Under the pieces are notes generated by a model, which was not told where the DNA came from, did not search any database, and worked only from the letters and a program-made list of their open reading frames with translations. From a virus: 25,258 bases of DNA. A program made the position numbers and the translations under genes. Positions 1,974 to 7,184 of the stretch are shown here, piece by piece (the first letter of the stretch is position 1; every line of letters starts with the position of its first letter). The DNA is taken from positions 1 through 25,258 of IMG/VR virus record IMGVR_UViG_3300030389_001948; one strand, 5' to 3'.

Positions 1974-2195
1974 ATGAAAAAGAAAAGTAAATTTGAGAAG
2001 TATTTACGCCTGAACGGTGTAACTAAGAGAAGATTCAGCGAAATAACAGGGTTGAAAGGTCAGAGTATAAATAAGTACATTGACAACCCTACTCTTCTTA
2101 GGTTGAGTCACCTGAAACTGCTATCTGAAAGCGATGAGGGTAAGTATCACGAAATGGATGAAGTTAAATTAGTAAATCAAATAAACAAATGCTAA
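1974..2195 (+). CDS. small HTH DNA-binding protein
   Basis: A 73-residue basic protein. Residues 16-37 (VTKRRFSEITGLKGQSINKY) read as a helix-turn-helix of the Cro/XRE general type: a helix, a turn at TGLKG, and a recognition helix SINKYI. There are no other domains. It lies directly before the DnaA-domain gene and overlaps it by 7 nt, so it may regulate the early operon or assist replication initiation. Neither role is shown by sequence. Confidence 0.75.
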   Translation: MKKKSKFEKYLRLNGVTKRRFSEITGLKGQSINKYIDNPTLLRLSHLKLLSESDEGKYHEMDEVKLVNQINKC

Positions 2196-2611
2196 ATAGT
2201 GTTGATAGAGAGGAAGCTCTTAAAAAGGCAATATGCGTAACGTATAACGTCAGTTACGAAGATTTGTTGGGCAAGAGCAGAAAGATGAGTATAATGAATG
2301 GCAGGAGAATGTTTTTCTACTTTATGCGTAAACATTTCGGTGGCACGTATTGGGGTATGGGCAAAAGGTACAAGGTACACCACGCCACAATAATGCACCA
2401 CGTAAAAAGTATGGAGGGTTATTTGAGCTTCAACAAAAGAGAGATGATAAACTACATAAAAGTAAGAGATTATGTCTTTGAACAAAATAGTGAAGTAACA
2501 CTATCTGAGGAACTTGACCTCCTAAAACAAGAGCAGTCTTTGATTAATGATAGAATCAATGACATACAAAACGAATTAGAATTATTAAAATTGTTAGAAA
2601 ATGGAAATTAA
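2189..2611 (+). CDS. stand-alone DnaA domain IV-like protein
   Basis: A 140-residue protein whose first ~80 residues match the duplex-DNA-binding C-terminal domain (domain IV) of the initiator DnaA: YNVSYEDLLGKSRKMSI (19-35), an R-rich helix (MNGRRMFFYFMRK, 36-48), and the signature HHATIMHHVK at 64-73, equivalent to the DnaA box-reading D-H-(S/T)-T-V. DnaA itself is about 450 residues with an AAA+ domain; here that domain is missing and the rest (95-140) is a charged, Leu-rich probable coiled coil. It could bind DnaA-box-like sites in the phage genome to recruit or block host initiation. Such sequences occur at 2930-2938, 7034-7053 and 8838-8860. It sits beside HTH and SSB-like genes. Confidence 0.8.
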   Translation: MLNSVDREEALKKAICVTYNVSYEDLLGKSRKMSIMNGRRMFFYFMRKHFGGTYWGMGKRYKVHHATIMHHVKSMEGYLSFNKREMINYIKVRDYVFEQNSEVTLSEELDLLKQEQSLINDRINDIQNELELLKLLENGN

Positions 2612-5969: not shown

Positions 5970-6167
5970 ATGAGCATAAATATATACGACAGAAAAGATA
6001 TGAGGGGTGGCGGATATGCCAAACGCAAATTCACACTTGAGGAAGCCGATTTAATACGCAAGGAATATGATGCAGGTGGCATAAGTCAAACAAAGTTAGC
6101 CAAAAAGCATGGGGTATCTCAGCCAATAATCAATATGATTCTACGAGGGAAAACTTATAAAAATTAA
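5970..6167 (+). CDS. small HTH DNA-binding protein (resolvase-type HTH)
   Basis: A 65-residue basic protein. Residues 21-63 (FTLEEADLIRKEYDAGGISQ onward to ILRGKTY) match the HTH common in phage proteins and in the C-terminus of resolvases: helix 2 at TKLAKKHG, turn at VSQ, recognition helix PIINMILRGK. This form usually binds DNA as a small regulator. It is the last gene of the operon that starts at 3451, so it could act on the accessory promoters immediately downstream. Confidence 0.8.
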   Translation: MSINIYDRKDMRGGGYAKRKFTLEEADLIRKEYDAGGISQTKLAKKHGVSQPIINMILRGKTYKN

Positions 6168-6239: not shown

Positions 6240-6410
6240 ATGAAACCAATAGAATTAAAACTAACACAAAAAGAACTACAACTTTTACTTTCAAAATTAG
6301 TTCAATCAACAAGTGATGAAAATTTAGAAAACCCTAATTTATTAGTAAGTAAATTATATAACAAATTATACGATACTTTAAAAGAAAATAAATCAAAAAA
6401 GACAGATTAA
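6240..6410 (+). CDS. small hypothetical protein
   Basis: A 56-residue Leu/Lys/Asn-rich protein (starts MKPIELKLTQKELQLLLSKL). The start at 6240 is chosen because it follows the conserved promoter-leader cassette directly. It is very AT-rich relative to the replication genes, a pattern shared with other genes of the 6.2-8.7 kb accessory region. It is probably helical, with no membrane segment. Function is unknown. Confidence 0.65.
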   Translation: MKPIELKLTQKELQLLLSKLVQSTSDENLENPNLLVSKLYNKLYDTLKENKSKKTD

Positions 6411-6430: not shown

Positions 6431-6489
6431 CTTGAAAAATGTAAAGAACTAAAATAAAAATCAAAAACAATGGGACATGGAGGTCGTCA

Positions 6490-6534
6490 GGGGGATAAGG
6501 GGGATAAGGGAGTAGGGGGGTGCTTCGGCACTCC
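6490..6534 (+). promoter_or_regulatory. G-quadruplex-type tract overlapping a UUCG hairpin
   Basis: G-runs at 6490-6494, 6499-6503, 6508-6510 and 6515-6520, separated by ATAA, ATAA and AGTA, satisfy the G3+N1-7 rule for a quadruplex. Bases 6517-6523 can instead pair with 6528-6534 (one G-T wobble) around a C(TTCG)G tetraloop. The two structures compete for the last G-run. The element lies 44 nt before the ATG at 6578, in an otherwise AT-rich region, and could control that gene at the RNA level. Confidence 0.5.
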
Positions 6535-6577
6535 ATTGATAAACAAATTGAATAATAACCACTTTAACTATAACAAA

Positions 6578-6856
6578 ATGATTACAAAGAAAGAAGCAAA
6601 GCACTTATTAGAAAAGATGAAAGAGGACAACAGAATGTTCTCACTTGAGTTCATCAAGAAGGATGGAACTAGAAGAACTATGTTGGCTAGGTTCAACGTA
6701 ACAAAGTATCTACTAGGCGAAGGCAGAAGGTATGACCCTGCCAACTACAACCTCATGACTGTGTTCGATATGAACAAGAGTGCATACAGAACAATACCAT
6801 TGGATAGACTCCTGTGGATTAGAACAAAAGGCAAAAGATACTATGTAAGTCCATGA
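6578..6856 (+). CDS. SH3 beta-barrel-type small phage protein
   Basis: A 92-residue basic protein from the ATG at 6578. Residues 22-33 (SLEFIKKDGTRR), a central strand block, FDMN-x5-YRTIPLDRLLWIR (62-81) match the small SH3-barrel-fold proteins of Bacteroidota phages, where F-x-x-KKDG-x-R and (w/y)R-x-(f/i)-x3-l-l-x-I are typical. Function is unknown. An in-frame ATG at 6470 would add 36 residues of odd Gly/Lys/Asp-rich composition encoded by the G-rich tract; the 6578 start is preferred because it follows the A-rich TAACAAA context and begins the recognisable domain. A strong terminator follows. Confidence 0.7.
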   Translation: MITKKEAKHLLEKMKEDNRMFSLEFIKKDGTRRTMLARFNVTKYLLGEGRRYDPANYNLMTVFDMNKSAYRTIPLDRLLWIRTKGKRYYVSP

Positions 6857-6890
6857 TTGAATTGTTTTTAGTTAATATTTGTTTGTTAAT

Positions 6891-6926
6891 AGGGTGGTCG
6901 ATAAATTTGACCACCTTATTTTTTTT
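6891..6926 (+). terminator. intrinsic terminator after the SH3-type gene
   Basis: A 9-bp stem 6891-6899/6909-6917 (GGTGGTC/GACCACC core with one G-T wobble), a 9-nt loop and T8 at 6919-6926. It lies 35 nt after the stop at 6856. Confidence 0.85.
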
Positions 6927-6932
6927 GTGACC

Positions 6933-6980
6933 ACGAAACTGCTACCGTTGAAACTGCCACCGAAACTGCCCTGAAACTGC
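6933..6980 (+). repeat. four GAAACTGC direct repeats in a gene-free stretch
   Basis: GAAACTGC occurs at 6935-6942, 6950-6957, 6962-6969 and 6973-6980, with starts 15, 12 and 11 bp apart. The same octamer occurs at least seven more times on this strand elsewhere in the window and I found no copy on the other strand. Confidence 0.6.
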
Positions 6981-6984
6981 CATT

Positions 6985-7002: not shown

Positions 7003-7031
7003 TTATGACGACCCCTCCCCTACCCCACCTC

Positions 7032-7053
7032 TTTGTTAATAACTTGTTGATAA
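7032..7053 (-). other. DnaA-box-like pair in the gene-free stretch 6857-7184
   Basis: On the minus strand TTATTAACA (7034-7042) and TTATCAACA (7045-7053) resemble the DnaA box TTATCCACA; the starts are 11 bp (about one helical turn) apart. The 17-mer at 7032-7048 is repeated at 8850-8866. The rest of the 328-bp stretch holds a terminator, the octamer repeats, a dyad and the promoter at 7121. Confidence 0.4.
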
Positions 7054-7120
7054 CTTTTATTCGCTGTTTGTTTGGATATTAAAAAAGTTTATTGCATGGG
7101 GTTGAAAAAAATTAAATTAT

Positions 7121-7152
7121 TTGTTTTTTGTATTAAATTATTTGTATATTTG
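7121..7152 (+). promoter_or_regulatory. Bacteroidota-type promoter of the accessory operon
   Basis: TTG 7121-7123, 21-nt spacer, TATATTTG 7145-7152. The leader ends with ACTAAAACAAA before the ATG at 7185. It drives the five-gene operon that ends at the terminator 8437-8463. Confidence 0.7.
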
Positions 7153-7184
7153 TCGAAACAAAATATTAATTAAACTAAAACAAA

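Follow-up and report, generated by a model that had tools for sequence, protein, structure and literature searches.

The lambda-type replication origin, which lies within gene O, combines iterons with adjacent AT-rich DNA in a replication gene region. Bacillus phage SPP1 has two origins, oriL and oriR, which consist of direct repeats with an AT-rich DUE and are bound by gp38 (PMC6316719). At mitochondrial CSBII, a hybrid RNA:DNA quadruplex involving the non-template strand stabilises an R-loop and anchors replication priming (PMC6317783), and hybrid quadruplexes have been described in their own right (PMC3905843). Here we report a tract of G-runs and a direct-repeat array in an uncultured phage which look like the two halves of one undescribed control element. 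The open-access literature yielded no paper on such a tract–array element, which is weak evidence of absence.

The window, meaning the whole stretch of DNA that was analysed, covers 25,258 nt (25.3 kb) of viral record IMGVR_UViG_3300030389_001948. Relatives of its terminase occur in Croceibacter and Cellulophaga phages (39–43% identity) and, together with the Bacteroidota-type promoters, they make a Flavobacteriia-like candidate host likely. No isolate or host bearing the two-part element was found in three checks: a search of phage records, isolated flavophages included, with WYL_2 returned only distant matches in proteobacterial phages, Croceibacter phages P2559Y and P2559S have neither G-tract nor array, and one scan of genome contigs gave no close WYL_2 in Bacteroidota prophages. 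The features of the window are as follows.

2189–2611, plus strand: gene for a DnaA domain IV (DNA-binding) protein, candidate initiator (PF08299, E = 2e-12)
6470–6856, plus strand: WYL_2 (SH3/Sm-like) gene with a glycine-rich N-terminal extension from the G-tract; 6470 is the probable start
6490–6520, plus strand: G-tract with runs of 5, 5, 3 and 6 G, the putative 5' half of the two-part element
6517–6534, plus strand: C(TTCG)G hairpin of 7 bp, unconserved in relatives and judged incidental
6888–6920, plus strand: predicted intrinsic terminator, a hairpin with a T run after it, conserved in position in relatives
6935–6983, plus strand: direct-repeat array GAAACTGC(C/T), with copies at 6935, 6950, 6962 and 6973, the putative 3' half of the element
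7012–7026, plus strand: C-rich island, G-rich on the minus strand, present in several close relatives and absent from clade 2
7033–7054, plus strand: two tandem 11-mers TTGTTRATAAC, DnaA-box-like on the minus strand
7111–7153, plus strand: two tandem AT-rich 21-mers inside the AT-rich stretch past the array
7145–7152, plus strand: Bacteroidota-type -7 promoter element TATATTTG (TAnnTTTG), a motif enriched after arrays

As in SPP1, short direct repeats and an AT-rich stretch lie side by side, within early genes or close to them; some members of the present group have two copies per genome, and one SPP1 origin is within a gene (PMC6316719). For SPP1, no G-tract 400 bp upstream is reported and the two origins are approximately 13 kb apart (PMC6316719), and the initiator here is a candidate. 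With vertebrate CSBII and the heavy-strand origin, the locus shares G-runs that lie in a transcribed region, on the non-template strand, and could plausibly anchor an R-loop at an origin (PMC6317783). However, CSBII is mitochondrial, is without an iteron array and has its tract in the primer transcript, close to the start site, whereas the tract described here is 400 bp from the repeat array. In contrast to the lambda-type origin, the array is not in an initiator gene, its spacing is mostly 9–13 bp and there is a distant G-tract. Finally, RNA G-quadruplex leaders also have G-runs upstream of a coding core, but the tract of the window is inside coding sequence and follows the array, not the gene.

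The four G-runs on which the initial annotation was based are present as it described them (6490–6494, 6499–6503, 6508–6510 and 6515–6520, with 4 nt spacers), and they are rare: a Markov model predicts 0.003 occurrences of at least three runs of at least 4 G, and 0.017 of four runs of at least 3 G, per 25 kb strand. This is the sole tract of its kind in the window and its top G4Hunter peak (2.2). The last run is indeed shared with a 7 bp hairpin (GGGGTGC-TTCG-GCACTCC, including one G-U pair; -12.3 kcal/mol), the 3' end of which is 43 nt upstream of ATG 6578. Both structures are predicted, but they do not strictly exclude one another, since the best fold of 6484–6545 with quadruplex energies retains a two-layer quadruplex together with six of the seven hairpin pairs. 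Comparison with relatives separated the two components, the G-runs being conserved and the perfect UUCG stem being private to the window and nearly unique. The folds at this position in relatives (-3.6 to -7.0 kcal/mol) mostly contain a hexaloop, a mismatch or another stem, distant relatives have no UUCG-type hairpin, and no Rfam family scored above its gathering threshold. In the window, the tract offers the four short-looped runs, each of 3 G or more, that an intramolecular quadruplex requires. Several relatives have only three runs, of 5–6 G each, at the corresponding position, so that an intramolecular three-layer quadruplex is impossible for them. A hybrid quadruplex should need fewer G-runs per strand than an intramolecular one and would fit the three-run tracts.

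The gene downstream, previously called SH3-type, encodes the SH3/Sm-like domain WYL_2 (PF10902, E = 4e-10; 40.3 bits against a Pfam cut-off of 26.7). The tract had been placed ahead of this gene, but it is actually inside it: the frame is open across the tract to an upstream start in 28 IMG/VR relatives, and the alternative that the same annotation had raised, an in-frame coding extension from ATG 6470, is correct for both the window and the relatives closest to it. Across 19 distinct 39 nt clade-1 tracts, the WYL_2 frame contains 2 stops, both upstream of an ATG, and the other two frames contain 17 and 39. Over the 20 codons preceding ATG 6578, changes are mostly at third positions (237, 269 and 521 for codon positions 1, 2 and 3). 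Tract-free relatives begin M-Y-Y-D-T-P or M-H-Y-N-T-P followed by LINKLNDNEFNYIK, giving the start pattern M(Y/H)Y(D/N)TPLINKLN. On the basis of the conserved frame, these starts and the third-position bias, ATG 6578 is internal, and in the clade of the window the tract codes for a glycine-rich N-terminal extension.

These observations bear directly on the idea that the tract and the hairpin form a leader RNA switch for WYL_2, with quadruplex and UUCG hairpin as alternative states. The predicted structures and their common G-run are what speak for it. Against this, the frame is conserved through the tract with ATG 6578 internal, the perfect hairpin occurs in the window alone, and tracts are found at sites without WYL_2 just as WYL_2 is found without a tract. 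On these grounds of frame, hairpin and gene independence we reject the switch, its probability being close to nil. A purely coding explanation, in which the extension (GDKGDKGVGG) has a role in the protein, is supported by the bias in stop codons but is also very improbable. Among glycine codons in long ORFs, GGG accounts for 9% in the window and 5% in a clade-2 contig, yet it dominates in the tracts. The clade-2 tract is noncoding with respect to WYL_2, which contradicts coding as the sole cause, and coding does not account for the spacing of approximately 400 nt to the array. It had been argued that relatives keeping the frame, with synonymous changes breaking the G-runs, would indicate a coding role; in fact the frame is kept and so are the runs. 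The view that the G-runs are unusual and important at the nucleic-acid level is borne out.

The tract and the array occur together, on the same strand, at a near-constant spacing and independently of the gene that lies between them. In AT-rich phage contigs, the distance from the end of the G-tract to the array is 402 ± 23 nt (median 404), and in the window it is 414 nt (6520 to 6935). Among the matches listed there are 80 distinct AT-rich arrays, a set retrieved in part through WYL_2 or the tract, and in 66 of them a tract lies on the same strand no more than 700 nt upstream; none of the 80 has a tract downstream or a C-tract upstream. An IMG/VR scan seeded only with the array gave, among the matches listed, a tract at 21 of 31 AT-rich arrays (24 if two-run tracts are counted), compared to 2–3% at random places. 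After clustering of related loci, 8 of the 15 clusters among the matches listed have a tract against an expectation of 4% (binomial p ~3e-8), or 10 of 15 with two-run tracts counted (expectation 4–6% overall). No tract accompanies the same heptamer arrays in GC-rich contigs among the listed matches of the array scan. Plain G-run scans of IMG/VR returned mostly unrelated or collagen-like sequences among the matches listed.

The two halves also tend to be present or absent as a pair. At the WYL_2 site, 34 sequences have array and tract, 6 the array only, 1 the tract only and 44 neither; at the VRR-NUC site the equivalent numbers are 37, 2, 4 and 39. Pooled, there are 71 with both, 83 with neither and 13 discordant, although related sequences are among those counted, so that the events are not independent. 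Of the four tract-only VRR-NUC loci, at least three are of one type (that of L035), in which the array comes after the HTH gene at a distance of 500 nt. When 24 records were scanned whole, 22 had matches. The tract was confined to one or two places and lay on the coding strand; the other strand gave few matches, and these came from the C-rich island. Some arrays are tract-free (L016, L019, L022, L025, L455, L549 and L535), so the tract is not essential everywhere. That the two-part element itself is real is, in our assessment, very probable.

We found the tract in five settings: N-terminal coding sequence of WYL_2, a WYL_2 leader, inside the HTH gene, at the HTH/VRR-NUC junction and inside VRR-NUC. 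In clade 1, tract and array are both found at WYL_2 and both missing from VRR-NUC, and in clade 3 (L440, L445, L447 and L449) both are found at VRR-NUC and missing from WYL_2. Clade 2 (L442 and L450) has two arrays and two tracts, one pair per site, with spacings of 415 and 403. In distant phages (WYL_2 approximately 40–44% identical, GC 26–28%), the G-tract ahead of WYL_2 is a noncoding leader, and a second tract is within an HTH gene homologous to 5970–6167 of the window. In loci whose array directly adjoins the stop of VRR-NUC, the tract falls inside the HTH gene by means of G-rich codons while keeping the protein alignment (EGIRGEYHRGG, compared to LIRKEYDAGG in the window). Across 13 clade-2 segments, 2 of 34 sites are variable within this HTH tract, whereas the flanks vary at 11 of 75 sites on the upstream side and at 19 of 91 on the downstream side. 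The segments were picked by their tract, however, which favours a low count inside it. Two loci (L175 and L194) retain a two-run remnant in the HTH gene, and the array there in the L175 contig has two copies. In L035, the tract lies in frame within VRR-NUC; translational bypassing at this insertion was considered and rejected because the frame passes straight through the tract as RGVEGDKGDGGG.

A different account of this distribution is that the tract serves in recombination, in the joining of modules or in packaging, with G-run homology allowing genes upstream of the WYL_2 or VRR-NUC cassette to be swapped. It would suit clade 1, where the sequence upstream of the tract is wholly different between locus groups and the protein downstream is 75–98% identical. 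However, it predicts neither the 400 nt spacing nor the paired presence and absence with the array, and the clade-2 HTH tract is within a conserved gene with no junction. We consider this account improbable.

Several observations concern the genes around the element. The gene for a small HTH protein (5970–6167), a candidate DNA-binding partner, adjoins the element in module-bearing phages. Between it and WYL_2, clade-1 loci have differing small cargo sequences, joined to WYL_2 through the G-tract. The window has a 56-aa ORF (6240–6410) of which no counterpart was seen in L001 on the upstream side of its tract.

The array consensus is (T)GAAACTGC(C/T), containing the heptamer GAAACTG, and is conserved in the 80 distinct arrays among the matches listed. 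There are 4 copies in the window and 3–7 in relatives, as direct repeats of the iteron type. From 60 to 180 nt past the array, the AT content is 0.80–0.86 (65 loci), compared to about 0.6–0.7 in most flanking sequence, providing the adjacent AT-rich region in which unwinding would be expected at an iteron-type origin. A TAnnTTTG promoter follows 123–144 nt (about 120–145) past the array in most clades and often 160–210 nt past it in clade 1. The motif TTGTTRATAA, picked after being noticed, is found in 4 of 18 clusters against an expectation of 0.1. Homologues of the phage-encoded DnaA domain IV protein, a candidate binder of the array, are present in those module-bearing contigs that cover the region, as would be expected of an iteron-type origin. 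The C-rich island, quadruplex-prone on the minus strand, lies between array and AT-rich stretch in several clade-1 phages (the window, L004, L006, L010, L016 and L020), and is present in L016 though the G-tract is absent. Pairing of the G-tract with this island was rejected: the island is missing from some clade-1 loci and from clade 2, and so cannot be the common partner of the tract. Inverted repeats TTAGTGT-n-ACACTAA follow the array in many clade-1 phages (L004, L010, L013, L016, L019, L025 and L026); the window is without them and has the TTGTTRATAAC repeats at the corresponding place.

As to function, we infer either a replication origin or a control site. Given the architecture of the SPP1 origins and the R-loop precedent of CSBII, we favour, tentatively and with somewhat less than even confidence, an iteron-type origin in which the G-tract, forming the 5' part of a bipartite cis element, contributes an R-loop or quadruplex. 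The order would be a sense-strand tract of G-runs, about 400 bp, the GAAACTGC(C/T) array, an AT-rich stretch and a promoter, and the element would presumably act on DNA or nascent RNA in early transcription. A phage initiator or regulator, for which the DnaA-domain protein is a candidate, would bind the array, the AT-rich stretch would melt, and the transcribed G-tract would form a quadruplex or R-loop on the non-template strand, helping to open or prime the DNA. Where the tract lies inside a gene, it would be a tolerated glycine-rich stretch. In seven sequences, namely the window and six longer contigs, GC and TA skew at third codon positions does not switch clearly at the element, and two arrays in one small genome region are unusual for an origin.

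The main rival to an origin is a site controlling transcription, with the GAAACTG array as an operator or activator array for the promoter approximately 140 nt downstream and the G-tract as a further site, acting by protein binding, by looping or by pausing of RNA polymerase, for the transcription unit whose end lies there. In keeping with this are the position of the TAnnTTTG promoter at 123–144 nt in most clades, the location of the array mostly between the end of a transcription unit and the next promoter, and a G-run period of mostly 9–13 nt, near one helical turn. The array-to-promoter distance is long for a Bacteroidota activator, however, and the window has a promoter at about 6208 without an array. 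Transcription control alone would also leave unexplained an AT content of 0.85 over approximately 100 nt and the DnaA-box-like repeats. We hold this explanation to be possible but doubtful.

Beyond the question of function, the locus may represent a new class of viral element in Bacteroidota-type phages, in which G-run and iteron arrays are required approximately 400 bp apart on the same strand, with the G-half imposed on whatever sequence, coding or not, occupies that distance; we put this forward as a possible and still speculative generalisation. Quadruplex-prone sequences in phages are usually just counted, whereas here the position of the tract is fixed relative to a second motif. The tract is found again in several lineages and holds its place even at the cost of altered protein sequence, and such evidence for function is rare. 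If the element is an origin, initiation in Flavobacteria-type phages would be tied to G-tracts or R-loops, and there would be a simple rule for finding origins in uncultured viral genomes. The case also cautions against assigning an odd sequence to a gene simply because it lies ahead of it.

Related motifs were seen elsewhere. A three-copy heptamer array lies far from WYL_2 and without a G-tract at L448:1048–1075 and L446:9388–9414, and also in L476, L522, L232 and L242, in exact 9 nt tandem where read (GAAACTGCT x3); in the contig of L001 it is approximately 8.5 kb from the main array. This distant array may be a second site. In an AT-rich phage group that is apparently unrelated (L292, L320, L321, L354, L381 and L399), there is one conserved block made up of CCCCC/GGGGGG hairpins and G-runs and ending in GTGTTGATAACTT.
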